From the IMG/VR virus record IMGVR_UViG_3300010158_000371, positions 1 to 21,280 of that record: a stretch of 21,280 bases of DNA; one strand, given 5' to 3'. Of the stretch, positions 133 to 8,059 are shown in pieces. The notes under the pieces were generated by a model, which worked only from the letters and a program-made list of their open reading frames with translations, was not told the origin of the DNA and did no database searches. Every line of letters starts with the position of its first letter. Position 1 is the first letter of the stretch. A program made the translations under genes and the position numbers. This stretch comes from a virus.

Positions 133-608
133 CACAAGCACAACAACGTGCTCAACAACAGTCTCAAGCAACCACAATGCCTCAAATGCCGAGTAAAAAT
201 ATGGGCCCAGTAGATACAGCATATACAAGATTGCCTAATAATGCAACCTCGGCCACCGGGGGTCAAACAACCACTACTCCTACCGGACAAGTTCATAGAG
301 CTAATCCAAATAATAAAAATATCGCACAACTACCAGCAGTATCTGCCCCGCAACGATTGCCCTACACGAAACAAGCTACAACTGCAACACCGAACTATGG
401 TCAACGACCTACTGGTTATGCAAAACCTACATACAATGTGCCTACTAGCCCAATGCCTCAGGTCACTACTCTGCCGTATACTAATGCCAAAAATACATCT
501 ACTAATGTAAATTACAAACCACCAGCGACTGCTGGAACAAACTCTAAACCCGCAATGGCAGAATCATCAAAGGATTTTTCAGCTCTGCTGTTAAATAAAA
601 CAAAATGA
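1..608 (+). CDS. Gln/Pro/Ala-rich low-complexity protein, 5' end outside window
   Basis: The reading frame is open from the left edge (first full codon at base 3), so this is the C-terminal part of a longer protein. A GTG at 66 could start a 180-residue protein, but the same repetitive sequence continues in frame upstream of it, so I do not favour it. The first ~55 codons are a near-tandem series of QPAQA-type units. The rest is rich in Thr, Pro, Asn, Gln and Ala, has no recognisable fold, and ends in a short more ordinary tail (SSKDFSALLLNKTK). It is probably intrinsically disordered. Its TGA overlaps the ATG of the next gene (ATGA), so it is coupled to the nucleotidyltransferase-like gene at 605. 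I do not recognise the family; a disordered tail of a virion or assembly protein is possible but unproven. Confidence 0.7.
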   Translation, partial: AQAQPAQAQPAPAQPAQAQPAVAQPAPAQAQPASSQPAQPARPAQAQQRAQQQSQATTMPQMPSKNMGPVDTAYTRLPNNATSATGGQTTTTPTGQVHRANPNNKNIAQLPAVSAPQRLPYTKQATTATPNYGQRPTGYAKPTYNVPTSPMPQVTTLPYTNAKNTSTNVNYKPPATAGTNSKPAMAESSKDFSALLLNKTK

Positions 609-1468
609 TATTACTAGAAGGCGGCAACGAAGCCGCAGGACTAGGTGGCAATGTATTCAAAGATGATCAAGGTCGCCCACTTACACAACGTATCAATGTA
701 GCTGATGTGCCTGCCACAGTGACCTGGCTGGAAAAGATCACAGGATTGAACCTGCGTGGCAATGAACTAGGCAGTCTCAAGCGTCCCAGAGCCGGAACCA
801 CCAGCCTGGGTGACTTGGACCTTGGCATAGATGCCACTGTGATCAACAATGATGCAGTGATGCAGGTGTTGACACGTTGGTGCCAACAGCAAAAAATACC
901 CGCAGCAGAAATACTCAATCGTCCGGCCAACAAAACGAAAAAAGATCCTGGATTTTCGGGTGGCTGGATCAAAAATGCCGGATCACAGATACACTTTAGA
1001 ACTCCCATCAGTGGCAATGTCGCAAATGGTTTTGTGCAGGCAGATTTCATGTTCATGCCCGATTTGGAATTCAGCAAACAGGTGACAGGCTATGCAGATG
1101 GTGAAGACTTCAAAGCCGCAGATCGTGCCATACTTTACAACAGCATAGGCAAGGTCATTCGCACTGCTGACTTTCCCGGGGGAGTTAAATTTGACTGGCG
1201 CTCGGGCTTGTCCAATCGTCAAACCAATGATTTAATAACCAATGACTTCAACAACATAGCTGAAATACTGCTGGGACCGGGACACAATAGTAGAGATCTA
1301 GCATCAGTAAAGAACACAGTGTCAGCATTGAGAAATGACCCGCAACGTGAAGCAAAATTAAAAGATGCACGTGATAATTTTGCACAGAGAAATTTACAAC
1401 TGCCCGAAAGTGCTGCCAGTGTTCATCCCACTGAGTGGTTACGTCATTGGAACAATAGATTGCGATGA
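605..1468 (+). CDS. Predicted nucleotidyltransferase-like phage protein (pol-beta-type motifs)
   Basis: The product has 287 residues. It shows a Ser-Leu-Gly-Asp-Leu-Asp-Leu block at residues 67-73 (Asp70 and Asp72) and a strand-like Val-Gln-Ala-Asp-Phe-Met-Phe block with Asp147. This GS/DxD plus later Asp arrangement is the usual signature of polymerase-beta-fold nucleotidyltransferases, where the three Asp bind metal. The HFRTP stretch before Asp147 also looks conserved-family-like; I recall similar SGDLDL proteins annotated as hypothetical in T4-like cyanophages. The C-terminal third (about 215-287) is helical and charged. The start overlaps the preceding stop and its own stop overlaps the next start (ATGA both times). 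The adjoining gene carries the same motif pair, so the two may be distant paralogues or partners. The substrate is unknown. Confidence 0.6.
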   Translation: MILLEGGNEAAGLGGNVFKDDQGRPLTQRINVADVPATVTWLEKITGLNLRGNELGSLKRPRAGTTSLGDLDLGIDATVINNDAVMQVLTRWCQQQKIPAAEILNRPANKTKKDPGFSGGWIKNAGSQIHFRTPISGNVANGFVQADFMFMPDLEFSKQVTGYADGEDFKAADRAILYNSIGKVIRTADFPGGVKFDWRSGLSNRQTNDLITNDFNNIAEILLGPGHNSRDLASVKNTVSALRNDPQREAKLKDARDNFAQRNLQLPESAASVHPTEWLRHWNNRLR

Positions 1469-2856
1469 AAATACGTGAAGTCATCGTTGAATCAATTTCG
1501 CCTGCACAGTCTTGTATTGACCAAGTGTACAGTCGATATCCCGAATGGCCCTACGGCCAAGCAGATCGAGTCATGGTGTGGGGGTCAGGCGAAGAACAAA
1601 CTTTTGCTGCATTCAAACTCAAACCCGGTGCCGATGCCCGCACAGTGGAAATAGACTGGATCATGGCTGGACCCGAACAACGTCAAGGTGTGGGCAGTAG
1701 AGCCATACGGGAACTGCAACGACAGGCACAGGAATCCAACATTAGATTGACACTGTATCCCTGGAGCCACGGCAGAATAAGTTCAGCCTCATTGACTAGA
1801 TTGTATAAAAGACATGGATTCAAGCCCATTGCCCGCGGTGCCAAGCCCATGACATGGGAGCCGATTCAGGAAGGTGGATGGGACTCGATTAAAACACAGG
1901 GCACTGTGCTACACCCCAGGATTGTAGCAGTAGCACTCAAGGTGGTGGATCGTTTTGTTGCTGAGTTTAATGCCAAGTATGCTGCACAAGTGGGCCAAAT
2001 ACGTCGTGGACGTCCCACAGGTTCCAGTGCTTACCACGAACAAGACACCATTGAAGATCCAGAAAAAGTCTATGGCGACATTGATTTACAAATGATTGCA
2101 CCAGAAGCCGCAGGTCAAGGCTATACACAGTTTACAACATATTGGAACAAGTTGGCCGATGACTTCATTAACACAGGATTAAGTTATGTTGAAGTTGGCG
2201 AAAAACCAGGACACCCTACATTCCAAATTGGCGCCAATGATTTTGTACAAATAGATTTCATGTGGCACCCGGAACGTTTGGAAAAGTGGGGTGCCGCCCG
2301 TGTAACTCCTGAGCGTGGAGTCAAAGGCCTGCTGACCGGCAACATGTTCAGTGTGTTGGGCGAACTACTTGATCTAAGTATTCAACACGCTGGTGTGCAG
2401 TTAAAAGTGGTGGACGGGCAACATGTGCCGTTTAGTAAACAAAAAGGCACAGAAGTTGTCACTGTGACCACAGAACCTGCTACTTTTATATTAGATACAT
2501 TTGTTTATCAAGCAAAACAGTTGGGAATTGACAATCCCAAGATTGACCCAATGCTGAAACAGTTTCCCGGCAATGACATCAACAATGTTAAAATAAGTCG
2601 ACTGGTGAATGGCGTCAAAGGATTTGCTAAAAGCTGTGAATCAAACGGAATGTTTGGACAAGGCGACTTTGCCAACTTTGCTGATGCACAAGATTTTATC
2701 AACCGGTTTTGGCAACGTTACGAAGAAAAAGCACAGATAGATATTGCTGGTAAGAAGCGTGATAAAGCCTCGACACCGGCTGCTGTAGCAAGAGCCAATA
2801 GTGATAGAGAAAAAATACAACAAGGACTGGACATGGTCAAAGGATATTTCCAATGA
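1465..2856 (+). CDS. GNAT acetyltransferase domain fused to nucleotidyltransferase-like domain
   Basis: The product has 463 residues in two parts. Residues ~10-135 resemble a GNAT N-acetyltransferase: an acetyl-CoA pyrophosphate loop Q72-R-Q-G-V-G77 (pattern Q/RxxGxG) followed by helix residues, and later the LYKRHGF block (113-119) typical of the last GNAT motif. Residues ~150-463 hold GSS at 186-188, a YGDIDLQM block with Asp205 and Asp207, and FVQIDFMWH with Asp264. These match the two-Asp plus third-Asp pattern of pol-beta-type nucleotidyltransferases and closely echo the upstream protein (GDLDL, QADFMF). The C-terminal ~120 residues are helical and Lys-rich. It is coupled to both neighbours by ATGA overlaps. 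The domain calls are motif-based; the joint function is inference. Confidence 0.6.
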   Translation: MKIREVIVESISPAQSCIDQVYSRYPEWPYGQADRVMVWGSGEEQTFAAFKLKPGADARTVEIDWIMAGPEQRQGVGSRAIRELQRQAQESNIRLTLYPWSHGRISSASLTRLYKRHGFKPIARGAKPMTWEPIQEGGWDSIKTQGTVLHPRIVAVALKVVDRFVAEFNAKYAAQVGQIRRGRPTGSSAYHEQDTIEDPEKVYGDIDLQMIAPEAAGQGYTQFTTYWNKLADDFINTGLSYVEVGEKPGHPTFQIGANDFVQIDFMWHPERLEKWGAARVTPERGVKGLLTGNMFSVLGELLDLSIQHAGVQLKVVDGQHVPFSKQKGTEVVTVTTEPATFILDTFVYQAKQLGIDNPKIDPMLKQFPGNDINNVKISRLVNGVKGFAKSCESNGMFGQGDFANFADAQDFINRFWQRYEEKAQIDIAGKKRDKASTPAAVARANSDREKIQQGLDMVKGYFQ

Positions 2857-3947
2857 TTTTATTAGAATTTATCACCATGTTAGCAGAAGGTACCAGAACA
2901 CCGCATCCGGAGGATTTTATATTTGCAGGTAGCAAGGCGGCACTGGATGCCATTGCCGGCATGACAGGTGCTGTAAAACAGCCCGAAACTGTTACAATTA
3001 AATGGGACGGATCGCCGGCCATTATATTTGGCCGTAGAACCGCGGATGGTCGATTCACAATGAACTACAAAGAGTACATTGGCGAACCAGGCGGACAAGT
3101 TACCAGTGCGGAAGAGTTATTAAAGTTTTATCAAGGTCATGGCAAGAACATGGAAGTAGGACAAAAACTAGCATCAGTGTTTAATGCTGTGGGCAGTATA
3201 TGTCCTGCTGGCTTTGCAGGATTTGTACAAGGTGACCTCATGTGGAGTGAGCCGTTAGAACCTGTGGATGGCAAGTTTGTATTCAAACCAAATCCACATG
3301 GTGTTACATACAGTGTTGTTGCTAACAGTCCCATTGGCAAAAACATAGCTGGCCGAAGTGTTGGATTGGCAGTACACAGCTACGGCACTGATATAGAAAA
3401 GTCTAAAAGCAGTCCTTTAGTAGGTCGTCAAACGTTGCCAGGACTTGGCGGATTAGCTGGCACCAATCAATACATCACAGTGTTCACAGGCAACATGGGC
3501 ACTGCCTTTAAGATGAAAGAACCCACCGCAGCAAAAAAAGCCGCTGAACGTGCTGTGGCTAAATTTGTTGCCGCAGGTGGTGATGCATTTTTAAGCAGCT
3601 TGACTCAATCCTCAAAAGATCGATTACAACAATACTACAATCGCAAAGCTACTGGACAAGAAGTGGATGGTGCATGGATACAAAGTAAATTGACCCGTCC
3701 ACAGTTTGAAATAGTAAACGCAGAAGAAAATAAAACTATATTGGAAGATTTACACAAAGTTTACATGGCTGTAACGCAATTAAAACTGGCCATATTGACT
3801 CAATTAGATAGTCAAGTACCAGACATCGAGCAATCCGTGGGCGGACAACCCAAAGGCGAAGGATTTAATATAGACACAGCCAGTGGGTTTATAAAACTAG
3901 TGGATCGTAGTGCTTTCTCCACAGCAAATGTTCAAGGAAGATTGTAA
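2853..3947 (+). CDS. Phage protein with KxDG motif, ligase/nucleotidyltransferase-like
   Basis: The product has 364 residues. Residues 48-59 read VTIKWDGSPAII. Lys50-x-Asp52-Gly53 fits motif I (the nucleotidyl-accepting Lys) of the DNA/RNA ligase and capping-enzyme superfamily. Further on, a GFVQGDLMW block (~123-131) sits where motif III would lie, with Asp instead of the usual Glu, and HGVTYSV (~149-155) may correspond to motif IV; a motif V Lys is not clear to me. I recall a family with the same HPED...KxDGSP...QGDLMxxx layout as widespread hypothetical proteins of T4-like cyanophages. It starts in an ATGA overlap with the GNAT fusion gene and ends the coupled run. Family membership is more certain than catalytic activity. 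Confidence 0.55.
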   Translation: MILLEFITMLAEGTRTPHPEDFIFAGSKAALDAIAGMTGAVKQPETVTIKWDGSPAIIFGRRTADGRFTMNYKEYIGEPGGQVTSAEELLKFYQGHGKNMEVGQKLASVFNAVGSICPAGFAGFVQGDLMWSEPLEPVDGKFVFKPNPHGVTYSVVANSPIGKNIAGRSVGLAVHSYGTDIEKSKSSPLVGRQTLPGLGGLAGTNQYITVFTGNMGTAFKMKEPTAAKKAAERAVAKFVAAGGDAFLSSLTQSSKDRLQQYYNRKATGQEVDGAWIQSKLTRPQFEIVNAEENKTILEDLHKVYMAVTQLKLAILTQLDSQVPDIEQSVGGQPKGEGFNIDTASGFIKLVDRSAFSTANVQGRL

Positions 3948-4014: not shown

Positions 4015-4437
4015 ATGGCAGTTTTCACAAGAGTTAACGGCGATTCAGCCGGTTCAAGACAAGTTGACACAGGTCGTGCATTTGCTAATGCAACCATCAT
4101 CAACACAGGTATCGCAGCACCATTGACAGCATATAAAATCACTACAGGCTTCGGCGGTAACTTAGCAGCTGAATTAGCAGTTGGTGGCGCAGTAGAAACA
4201 ATTTTACGTCAAGTTGAAGGTAATGCTTCAGTTTTAGCGTATCAAGTTGATACAGCACAACAGTTAAGCGTTTTAGTTGAGCGTTCAAGCTGGACTGATG
4301 CTACATTACAAACAGCTATCCAAACTGGTTCAGGTCAGTGGACAGCAGCAACCAGTGGCAACATTGGTGCTACAAGTAACGTTACTGTTGGTACATTAAC
4401 AGCAGTTACAAGTACTGGTGGTTTGAAATTAGCGTAA
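4015..4437 (+). CDS. Small, probably abundant phage protein (putative virion protein)
   Basis: The product has 140 residues, rich in Ala, Thr, Gly and Val, without Cys or long charged stretches, and with a predicted beta-rich C-terminus. I do not recognise a catalytic motif. Signs of high expression are clear. AAGGAG at 4002-4007 is 7 bases before ATG, a late-type promoter lies upstream, and a strong terminator follows at 4464. Codon choice is also uniform: 9 of 11 Leu codons are TTA and most Arg codons CGT, unlike the mixed CTG/TTG/TTA use next door. A monocistronic, highly translated late gene suggests a structural protein such as a capsid decoration or tail component, but that is inference from context only. 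Confidence 0.75.
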   Translation: MAVFTRVNGDSAGSRQVDTGRAFANATIINTGIAAPLTAYKITTGFGGNLAAELAVGGAVETILRQVEGNASVLAYQVDTAQQLSVLVERSSWTDATLQTAIQTGSGQWTAATSGNIGATSNVTVGTLTAVTSTGGLKLA

Positions 4438-5311: not shown

Positions 5312-5542
5312 ATGCGTATAGTAGAACTCTTAAATAACATTAGTCTACCTATAACCAACGAGGAGGCAGAGTTGTTAGATCAATTTGCAGATACAGAAAC
5401 ATTACATAAATCTGCATTGGATCCAAGACAACAATTAATTGCCAACAGTTTGGTCAACAAAGATGTGTTATTGAGAATTCAAGAAAATGGACGTATTACC
5501 TATCGAAAACCAAGAAGTCAAGCCCACAAAACAACAAGTTGA
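5312..5542 (+). CDS. Small conserved phage hypothetical protein
   Basis: The product has 76 residues, starting 3 bases after the upstream stop with no clear Shine-Dalgarno site, so it probably relies on coupling. The N-terminal half is acidic (PITNEEAELLDQF) and the middle reads LDPRQQLIANSLVNKDVLLRI. This pattern resembles small hypothetical proteins I associate with T4-like phages. The last 56 bases overlap the next gene in another frame, so the C-terminal KPRSQAHKTTS tail is shared coding DNA. The function is unknown; it has no membrane segment and no Cys. Confidence 0.65.
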   Translation: MRIVELLNNISLPITNEEAELLDQFADTETLHKSALDPRQQLIANSLVNKDVLLRIQENGRITYRKPRSQAHKTTS

Positions 5543-6080: not shown

Positions 6081-6773
6081 ATGAAATTATCAGAAATGAG
6101 CAACCAGCCAAGAGCTAAACGAATTAATCAAGTAGTTGAAAGCAGATTTGGCTTCAAAATTGACTACGACAGTTTAACATTTACAAAAGCCTATCGATTG
6201 GCCACCGGCATCACAGAGAGCTTGAATGCTGTCAAGCGTACACACGGTGTACACACAGCTGAAAAGAATCCCAAATACATGGAACTGTTGATGGTTCGTG
6301 AAAGTTTAAATCGCTGGATGGTGGAAAATCGCCATGTACTGTTGCGTGAAAGCGAAATGGCCAAGGCCGAAGCTACATTAGCTGCCAAAGACATGGTTGA
6401 CTCGATACAGGACATGTTGGAAAAAATTGGTAAAATGCAAAACGAGCAGTTACCGGCCTTGGTAGATACAATTCGTGATCAAATTGGCGAACAGCAGGCC
6501 GAAAGTTTCAAAGGCACAGTTACTCCTTTGTTACAACAATTATGGCAACAACTCAGCACTGGTCGTGAACAGGCCGACGGTGCTGCCCGTGCATTGACTG
6601 GCGAAGCTGCTCCGGACATGAGCATGGGTGGTATGGACACTGGTATGGGTGCCCCGGCTCCTGACTCGGGTATGGCTCCTGCTCCAGAAGCTCCGGCTCC
6701 AGAGGGCGATGGATTTGATGGCACTGATGCAGCAGTTGGTGGACCAGAAGAACTTGGCAGAGAAAAGCGTTAA
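6081..6773 (+). CDS. Conserved phage helical protein, possible scaffold or core protein
   Basis: The product has 230 residues. Residues ~1-60 are basic, and ~65-170 are almost entirely helical and amphipathic, with a Glu/Ala/Met-rich core and DMVDSIQDMLEKIGKMQ near the centre. The last ~55 residues are a flexible Ala/Pro/Gly/Met tail (MGGMDTGMGAPAPDSG). I recall a similar KLSE...AKDMVD...LPAL protein next to capsid genes of T4-like cyanophages. A helical body with a disordered acidic tail is what a prohead core or scaffold protein often shows, but I cannot assign it to a named T4 gene. Its TAA overlaps the next ATG (TAATG). A candidate late promoter lies at 6046. Confidence 0.65.
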   Translation: MKLSEMSNQPRAKRINQVVESRFGFKIDYDSLTFTKAYRLATGITESLNAVKRTHGVHTAEKNPKYMELLMVRESLNRWMVENRHVLLRESEMAKAEATLAAKDMVDSIQDMLEKIGKMQNEQLPALVDTIRDQIGEQQAESFKGTVTPLLQQLWQQLSTGREQADGAARALTGEAAPDMSMGGMDTGMGAPAPDSGMAPAPEAPAPEGDGFDGTDAAVGGPEELGREKR

Positions 6774-7192
6774 TGCGATTTACAGAATTTGCCCGTCGAT
6801 TAAATGAAGATGGCCTAGCCGGTTTTGTTGAAGATGACGCCGACCATGCGGCCAATGATGCATTGATTGACACACTGAGAGAATTACAGTACAGCAGTGA
6901 TCATGCCACAGTGCCAAAAATATCTGTGGAAGCACTGATCAACCTGGTACGCAGTAAACCTGGCGCAGAAGCATTCACATTGGAAACACTGCAAAAAGCC
7001 AAACAACACAACGAAGCAGTAAAAAGCATTGTTGCCAATATCAAAGACGATGAAAATGGGCAAAAGTATGTTTTCATCAATCCTGTTGACAGCGATGTTG
7101 AGGTACCTGGTGAAGAGGGTGAAGCTGTTAAAACAGCACCTGAAAAAACAGTATCCAGTATGGCCAACCGTGCTCTAGGCAAACGCGGTTAA
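6773..7192 (+). CDS. Conserved T4-like phage hypothetical protein
   Basis: The product has 139 residues. An N-terminal FTEFARRLNED helix is followed by an acidic helical part (~25-60). The middle reads PKISVEALINLVRSKPGAEAF, then a short beta-like YVFINPVDSD (~101-110), an acidic linker, and a C-terminal TVSSMANRALGKRG. The VSSMANRA-type ending and the INLV...GAEAF segment resemble a hypothetical protein that I remember following the helical protein above in T4-like cyanophages, so the two probably work together. Start and upstream stop overlap (TAATG), giving translational coupling. No enzymatic motif is visible. Confidence 0.65.
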   Translation: MRFTEFARRLNEDGLAGFVEDDADHAANDALIDTLRELQYSSDHATVPKISVEALINLVRSKPGAEAFTLETLQKAKQHNEAVKSIVANIKDDENGQKYVFINPVDSDVEVPGEEGEAVKTAPEKTVSSMANRALGKRG

Positions 7193-7236: not shown

Positions 7237-7368
7237 ATGAAGGTTAAAAAAATAGCCAAAAAGTTGCTTCAAGCCTGCTTTGATCACAACAAAGCCAAGG
7301 AAAAAGAACTTTGGCTCAAAGCTCTCAAAAAGTCCTTAAAACACAAACACACAGAAGGTATTCAATAA
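7237..7368 (+). CDS. 43-residue Lys-rich small protein upstream of iscU
   Basis: The frame runs from ATG 7237 to TAA 7366-7368. CGGAGAA lies 7 bases before the start, and the stop overlaps the iscU start (TAATG). The product is very basic: about 13 Lys, one Cys, one Trp, and a KIAKKLLQACFDH amphipathic start followed by KELWLKALKKSLKHKH. It looks like two amphipathic helices. A ribosome site, a dedicated promoter and exact coupling to iscU argue that it is real, although it is too short for homology by eye. A nucleic-acid or acidic-partner-binding role would fit the charge, but nothing specific can be claimed. Confidence 0.65.
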   Translation: MKVKKIAKKLLQACFDHNKAKEKELWLKALKKSLKHKHTEGIQ

Positions 7369-7742
7369 TGGCATATTCACCACAGTTGCTGGATCATTAC
7401 GAAAATCCAAGAAATGTTGGCTCACTTGATAAAAATGACCCTGCAGTGGGAACAGGACTCACTGGAGCTCCTGCATGTGGTGATGTAATGCGTCTACAGA
7501 TTCGAGTAATAGATGGCATCATTACAGATGCAAAGTTCAAGACCTATGGTTGTGGTTCAGCCATTGCGTCAAGCAGTCTGGTTACAGAATGGGTCAAAGG
7601 TAAAACTTTAGATCAGGCCTTGGAGATAGACAACGCACAAATTGCCCAAGAGTTGGCATTGCCACCAGTCAAGATTCATTGTTCGATTTTGGCTGAAGAT
7701 TCCATAAGAGCCGCAATAGCAGACTATAAAAACAAACAATGA
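7368..7742 (+). CDS. iscU: IscU-type Fe-S cluster scaffold protein
   Basis: The product has 124 residues, close to the usual ~128. I start at ATG 7368 because the IscU sequence begins there (MAYSPQLLDHYENPRNVGS); an extension upstream would only read the small gene in another frame. All known cluster residues are present: Cys37 in GAPACGDVM, Asp39, Cys62 in YGCGSAIASSS, and His104-Cys105 in IHCSILAED. The LPPVK motif (98-102), through which the chaperone HscA binds IscU, is intact. IscU receives sulfur from IscS and iron and passes [2Fe-2S] or [4Fe-4S] clusters on. No iscS, hscA, hscB or fdx is seen here, so the phage protein presumably plugs into the host Isc machinery. It overlaps iscA by ATGA. 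Confidence 0.95.
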   Translation: MAYSPQLLDHYENPRNVGSLDKNDPAVGTGLTGAPACGDVMRLQIRVIDGIITDAKFKTYGCGSAIASSSLVTEWVKGKTLDQALEIDNAQIAQELALPPVKIHCSILAEDSIRAAIADYKNKQ

Positions 7743-8059
7743 TACATGTTACACCCCGAGCCGCTAGTAAGATTGCCACCAATCTTGATCGCAGAGGTCA
7801 AGGCATAGGTATAAGACTTGGAGTAAGAACCACAGGTTGTTCAGGACTGGCCTATGTGTTGGAATATGTAGACGCCACCTTGCCCGCTGATTTAATATTT
7901 GAGTCTGACGGTTTTAAAATTGTGTTGGATCCACGAGATCTTCCGATACTAGATGGGCTATTAGTAGACTATGTACGTCAAGGTTTAAATGAAGGTTTTG
8001 AATTCAATAATCCTCAAGAACGTGACCGTTGCGGTTGCGGGGAAAGTTTTAGAGTATAA
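7739..8059 (+). CDS. iscA: IscA-type Fe-S carrier (A-type) protein
   Basis: The product has 106 residues, the usual length for IscA (~107). The conserved parts are clear: RLGVRTTGCSGLAYVLEYVD with Cys34, and the C-terminal NNPQERDRCGCGESF with Cys98 and Cys100, giving the three Cys that hold iron or a cluster. GCSGLAY and the EGFEFNNP stretch make IscA more likely than ErpA or SufA, though the A-type families are close. The gene starts within the iscU stop (ATGA), so the two are made together: IscU as scaffold and IscA as iron/cluster carrier for target maturation. Its end lies only 5 bases from the end of the minus-strand gene. Confidence 0.94.
   Translation: MIHVTPRAASKIATNLDRRGQGIGIRLGVRTTGCSGLAYVLEYVDATLPADLIFESDGFKIVLDPRDLPILDGLLVDYVRQGLNEGFEFNNPQERDRCGCGESFRV

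Follow-up and report, generated by a model that had tools for sequence, protein, structure and literature searches.

A three-gene cluster in a T4-like phage from lake water encodes predicted nucleotidyltransferases and a ligase-type enzyme, each beginning with a putative capsid-targeting peptide. The cluster lies in the window analysed here, the 21,280-base IMG/VR record IMGVR_UViG_3300010158_000371. The best explanation, to which we assign a probability of about 50%, is that the enzymes are packaged in the phage head, injected, and work jointly on the ends of nucleic acids, probably RNA. The three genes would be cargo genes, the N-terminal capsid-targeting sequence of each product putting it into the prohead core. 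A gp21-type prohead protease would cut after [L/I/V]-x-E, the enzymes would remain inside the head, and they would enter the host together with the phage DNA. There, the two nucleotidyltransferases (NT1 and NT2) and the ligase-type enzyme (LIG) would most likely extend the ends of cleaved RNA (tRNA, for example) and then seal it, and this end repair would precede expression of any phage gene. The GNAT acetyltransferase domain would serve as an optional extra effector. Packaging in the head is well supported but indirectly so, and for this phage packaging and cleavage are predictions; we infer the RNA substrate and the role in repair or counter-defence.

The cluster consists of three consecutive ORFs on the + strand: NT1 (605-1468, 287 aa), encoding a predicted Pol-beta-superfamily nucleotidyltransferase; a GNAT-NT2 fusion (1465-2856, 463 aa); and LIG (2853-3947, 364 aa), with ligase/capping-type motifs. 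ATGA overlaps join NT1 to GNAT-NT2 (1465-1468) and GNAT-NT2 to LIG (2853-2856). The start ATG of NT1 (605) overlaps the stop of the preceding gene (3-608, + strand), whose product is A/P/Q-rich and which is cut off by the contig end; at this position the related contig G001 has a gene for 839 aa starting MKINDILVLDE/S (here and below a slash marks a cleavage site, established or putative). The gene after the cluster (4015-4437, + strand; function unassigned) did not match the cyanophage head protein found at that place, and nrdA and nrdB lie further downstream in the window. Beside the cluster, the window revealed no end-healing kinase or phosphatase. A preliminary description of this DNA had reported the coupled ORFs and their motifs (Pol-beta-type in the first, GNAT plus a second Pol-beta-type domain in the second, ligase/capping-type KxDG in the third), and our analysis agrees with it on both counts. 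Its view that the products are at best hypothetical proteins does not hold for the third, which matches DUF6267 (PF19782; E 2.8e-29, 103.1 bits, cut-off 27) and phrog_455. Both are families of unknown function, and DUF6267 is present in hundreds of cyanophage records.

NT1 contains the motifs G69-D70-L-D72, D147 and R205, and G69, D70, D72, D147 and R205 were invariant in 34 relatives. Searches of Pfam (E<=1) and PHROG with NT1 matched no family. The RlaP model (PF10127), which T4 NrdC.11 does match, was matched neither by NT1 nor by any of the 34 relatives. The AlphaFold (AF2) model of NT1 had a pLDDT of 89.6, and the top Foldseek matches of this model in the PDB were all family-X polymerases (Pol lambda, Pol mu and TdT; best E 6.5e-4), with low TM-scores of about 0.37. 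The modelled fold and the pattern G[ST]-x(n)-GDxD followed by a third Asp place NT1 in the Pol-beta nucleotidyltransferase superfamily. Thus, the Pol-beta fold proposed for the first gene and the conservation of its metal-binding Asp residues (D70, D72 and D147) were both borne out. PDB sequence searches with NT1, NT2 and LIG profiles returned nothing meaningful.

The N-terminal domain of the second protein (aa 48-119, positions 1606-1821, + strand) is a GNAT domain that barely passed the Acetyltransf_1 cut-off (PF00583, 20.8 bits versus 20.7). The NT2 domain (1873-2853, + strand) has the conserved motifs G186-S-S, D205, D207 and D264, and by the same motif logic as NT1 it is assigned to the Pol-beta type. 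No full-length homology between NT1 and NT2 emerged, hhalign giving a probability of 5% and aligning the two over no more than a short segment at the third Asp. NT2 exists as a stand-alone gene in other phages; in L131 (5950-7767), L132 and L134 its fusion partner is a GH19 chitinase/endolysin-like domain (PF00182, E 3.3e-13). The same GNAT family was also seen fused to a cytidine-deaminase-like domain and further domains in L142 (5488-7302) and L147 (2635-4803; deaminase-like domain PF00383, E 1.9e-6).

LIG carries motif I, K50-W-D52-G53 (3000-3011), a motif III-like G127-D128 (3231-3236), and motifs IV (E336-G337) and V (K348; both within 3858-3896), all on the + strand. In a set of 44 diverse members spanning lake phages and cyanophages, K50, D52, G53, K73, D128, Y153, H175, K311, E336 and G337 were invariant (44/44), and K348 and R352 were kept in 43. 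The motif order KxDG, GD, EG[FY], K is compatible with the ligase/capping superfamily, and the C-terminal end, IKLV[DN]R..FS, resembles by eye the motif V region of Rnl2. The KxDG motif and Lys50 singled out in the preliminary description are confirmed and joined by the remaining ligase-type motifs; a ligase fold match in the PDB and a profile match to T4 Rnl2 did not appear. The AF2 model of LIG is confident (pLDDT 90.2). Its search of the PDB gave no match below E 0.4 and no ligase, and a BFVD search gave DUF6267-type phage proteins as the named significant matches and placed an RNA ligase at E 0.06. No profile similarity to Rnl2-type RNA ligases (PF09414) was found for LIG: hhalign against T4 Rnl2 gave a probability of 0.2%, and PF09414 was not matched in Pfam. 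LIG shows no profile or fold tie to known ligases, perhaps in part because of a helical insert between motifs III and IV.

Each of the three proteins has many relatives in other viral contigs. To survey gene linkage, 47 non-redundant loci, each with at least 1 kb upstream, were fetched using LIG alone. NT1 lay upstream of LIG in 47/47, so the association of the two is not due to chance. Across all loci whose upstream sequence was long enough, the gene orders were NT1-LIG (38), NT1-NT2-LIG (18), fused NT1-LIG (5), NT1-GNAT-LIG (4), NT2-LIG (4) and NT2-NT1-LIG (2). These orders indicate that NT2 and GNAT are modules, of which the fusion in the window is one combination. Some phages have LIG joined in one protein with a cytidylyltransferase-like domain, whose HIGH-type motifs were recognised by eye, and phrog_455 implies a LIG-cytidylyltransferase fusion for cyanophages. 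In Agrobacterium phage Atu_ph07, a relative of NT1 (29% identity, E 6e-11) overlaps a gene that matches the PF09414 RNA_ligase model along almost its full length, scoring 18.7 bits where the cut-off is 27; this pair lends weak independent support to a pairing of NT1 with RNA ligase. The common pathway suggested earlier for all three activities is thus supported for the nucleotidyltransferase and ligase part, on the basis of conserved order, NT1-LIG fusions and the Atu_ph07 pair, and unsupported for the acetyltransferase. Most loci lack GNAT, and where present it is either a gene of its own or part of a fusion with other partners; this rarity rules it out as an essential member of one pathway; it is an optional add-on to an NT1-LIG core.

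The N-terminal peptides, which went unmentioned in the preliminary description, carry the case for packaging. The putative propeptides are MILLE in NT1, cut before GG (605-619); MKIREVIVE in GNAT-NT2, cut before S (1465-1491); and MILLEFITMLAE in LIG, cut before G (2853-2888). A possible second protease site, I-Q-E/GG, lies at the GNAT-NT2 junction (aa 134-136, 1864-1872), where the prohead protease could also split the fusion into its two domains; all four are on the + strand. In T4, proteins bound for the prohead core carry targeting propeptides of 10-19 residues, which gp21 cleaves (PMC9026906). The T4 sites (NC_000866) read MKTYQEFIAE/A in ipII and ipIII, MAKINELLRE/S in gp24, MELITELFDE/D in Alt and FLTE/A in gp23, and the N-termini studied here read as candidate sites of the same type, [L/I]-x-E before a small residue. 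The form [LI]xE/G was found in 50/50 distinct NT1 N-termini, and [LI]xE before a small residue in 41/44 distinct LIG N-termini, the remaining three having ITE, LKE or LNE before V. Isolated phages with a tagged LIG are Methylophilales phage Melnitz and Pelagibacter phage HTVC008M. Stand-alone NT2 (22/22) and GNAT (5/5) genes open with tags of this form, 8-9 residues long. Across the four domain families the consensus is [LIV]-x-E with G, A, S or D in the next position, and P2 is variable.

The sites also recur inside fused proteins, in the form [LIF]xE. Junctions read EPIQE/GG in the window, EPIME/GG in L138, IAE/G or IFE/G in NT1-LIG fusions, LME/A in L084 and F[RS]E/G in NT2-GH19 fusions. 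Stand-alone NT2 starts MRAREFVIE/GGWDS, its P1 Glu aligning with E136 of the window fusion, and the Atu_ph07 relative of NT1 opens at MGG, where mature NT1 would begin. The tags lie in the lowest-confidence part of the models (NT1 residues 1-5 and LIG residues 1-14, pLDDT <50); being conserved yet disordered, they appear to sit outside the fold. The NT1 tag is 5-7 residues long in most lake phages, versus 10 in T4 ipIII.

An ipIII-shaped pattern was devised after viewing the list of detected proteins of cyanophage S-CREM2 and the gene starts of G007, a 214-kb relative. It matched 4/13 cluster genes versus 0/216 others in G007 (p 6e-6), and 5/52 proteins detected by mass spectrometry versus 0/166 undetected ones in S-CREM2 (p 7e-4); both p-values are optimistic, because the pattern was refined after those lists had been seen. 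S-CREM2 showed no significant association for a loose pattern, [LIVF]xE[GSA] placed within the first residues. In G001, which is nearer the window, the strict ipIII-shaped pattern matched no gene, because the tags there differ in length; a stricter form of the looser pattern matched 3/11 cluster genes versus 3/156 others. In G007 (121266-121502; L172 7266-7502) a 78-aa protein starting MKIQEIITE/TATAGSTSASN was observed, its sequence after the site being like the mature gp23 start of the same phage, LAE/SATAGSTSAGN.

A gp21-type S77 prohead protease (PF03420) was present in 7/18 related contigs, and the large related contigs with this protease also carry gp23, which reads LAE/S or LSE/S at the expected place. 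gp21 was not found in G001 and G015 or in the nearest relatives of the window, which are fragments, as is the window. Published virion proteomes come from relatives, none of them close, and packaging for the window phage is judged from sequence. The virion proteome of S-SZBM1 (PMC9146016) includes a cytidylyltransferase adjoining LIG (362 aa, MRFRQFIIE/A) and the product of the next gene (457 aa). The LIG of S-SZBM1 is untagged and is absent from the passages of the virion list consulted, so the virion evidence covers the partner enzymes, with LIG itself excepted. The S-CREM2 virion proteome contains gp154, the cytidylyltransferase of the matching locus, starting MKNFSSFLTE/A, and gp156 (PMC10665884), which we assign to the Pol-beta type (NTP_transf_2, 21.4 bits, cut-off 21). 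Among the non-structural S-CREM2 proteins detected, N-terminal tags are borne by a SAM hydrolase, a kinase and the cytidylyltransferase. An NMNAT-like protein was detected in S-SCSM1 virions (PMC9602691). The authors of these reports caution that detection could be carry-over (PMC9146016, PMC10665884, PMC9602691). S-CREM2 gp12 (L261 7704-10313), a Cas9-like nuclease reported in virions, has a tag-like RFASFMAE/A about 25 residues from its start.

It is improbable that these are ordinary enzymes of the infected cell that are not packaged, the N-terminal peptide being a conserved accident or an aid to folding or translation. The cyanophage LIG, which has no tag in the phages checked, fits such a reading; the same [LI]xE/small form in four unrelated families, its retention at fusion junctions, its disorder in the models and the association of this kind of tag with virion detection in S-CREM2 all speak against it. 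If the enzymes are packaged, they might instead be host-takeover effectors. The nucleotidyltransferases would nucleotidylate a host protein or tRNA in the manner of AbiEii/MenT-type toxins, GNAT would acetylate a host protein (compare T4 Alt, which modifies RNA polymerase), and LIG would serve as a covalent carrier of nucleotidyl groups or modify tRNA or protein, instead of being a repair ligase. We regard this as rather unlikely, though it draws on weak AbiEii Pfam matches in 4/34 NT1 relatives (best E 0.0034) and on the cargo of related phages, among which are a zeta-toxin-like kinase, tagged and encoded near LIG, a weak metallopeptidase match, deaminase-GNAT fusions and a tagged GNAT-containing protein. 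It offers no reason for the invariant pairing of NT1 with a ligase-type enzyme, nor for the fusion of the two in some phages.

An end-filling and sealing pair for DNA (Pol X plus ATP-dependent ligase), repairing or circularising the injected phage genome, would account for Pol lambda, Pol mu and TdT as the best fold matches of NT1 and for the position of the cyanophage locus among replication and head genes. However, the TM-scores are low, NT1 is shorter than Pol X with no DNA-binding domain identified, two different nucleotidyltransferases and a variable HIGH-type cytidylyltransferase fit such a pair poorly, and the Atu_ph07 partner resembles an RNA ligase, not a DNA ligase; we consider this reading improbable. 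Injected enzymes acting on RNA ends remain our preferred explanation. A narrower version, offered tentatively, is a virion-delivered RNA repair kit that mends host RNA or tRNA cut by translation-blocking defences at a stage when no phage protein could yet be made, DUF6267 being a new family of RNA ligases. Where a defence halts translation, it would be logical for the virion to bring such enzymes along. If the preferred explanation is true, a large group of lake and ocean T4-like phages injects, alongside its DNA, enzymes that process RNA or nucleic acids, such cargo can be listed straight from sequence by a simple N-terminal tag, DUF6267 gains a testable activity, and the recurrent cytidylyltransferases in cyanophage virion proteomes would be explained.

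The proposed system resembles several known ones in part. Like the T4 internal head proteins (IPI-III and Alt), it has clustered cargo genes, short N-terminal peptides ending in hydrophobic-x-Glu, and a gp21 homologue in contigs related to the window. It differs in that the cargo comprises nucleotidyltransferases and a ligase-type enzyme, that the NT1 tag is very short, and that packaging and gp21 processing, which are known in T4, are predicted here from the genes. RlaP and RNA ligase pairs of bacteria and jumbo phages, proposed to serve RNA repair (PMC7824862), likewise pair a Pol-beta-type nucleotidyltransferase functionally with a ligase-type enzyme; however, NT1 does not match Pfam RlaP, LIG belongs to DUF6267 and is not a recognised RNA ligase, and both proteins are tagged here. 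In cyanophage syn9 the DUF6267 gene adjoins a cytidylyltransferase gene (gp183-gp184), flanked by uvsX/helicase genes on one side and by head genes, primase and nrdA on the other. This locus shares with the window the LIG family and a downstream nrdA, and its tagged partner enzyme is the one found in S-SZBM1 and S-CREM2 virions, but the partner is a HIGH-type cytidylyltransferase instead of Pol-beta nucleotidyltransferases and LIG is untagged in the cyanophages checked. In polyvalent proteins (Iyer et al. 2017, PMC5512222), too, effector domains (GNAT, deaminase, nucleotidyltransferase) are fused in phage products whose delivery to the host is presumed; they are giant multidomain proteins, whereas those described here are short and bear a T4-type head tag.

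Several further genes near the cluster and in relatives were observed. In the window, the protein encoded at 6773-7192 has a tag-like start, MRFTEFARRLNE/DG, and the starts at 5312 (MRIVELLNN) and 6081 (MKLSEMSNQ) are similar without the Glu. Pelagibacter phage HTVC008M (L194 6718-7380) encodes, two genes past LIG, a zeta-toxin-like kinase (PF06414, E 3.1e-13) with the tag-like start MIPFILKE/G. Downstream of the NT1 relative in Atu_ph07 (L295 5058-6901) are two tagged proteins, one with a GNAT domain; they have a common C-terminal domain that is ADP-ribosyltransferase-like by eye and has no Pfam name. Adjacent genes for iron-sulphur assembly, IscU-like (by eye) and IscA (PF01521, E 1.2e-16), occupy positions 7311-8059 of the window, and the same pair lies side by side in G001 (105793-106465).
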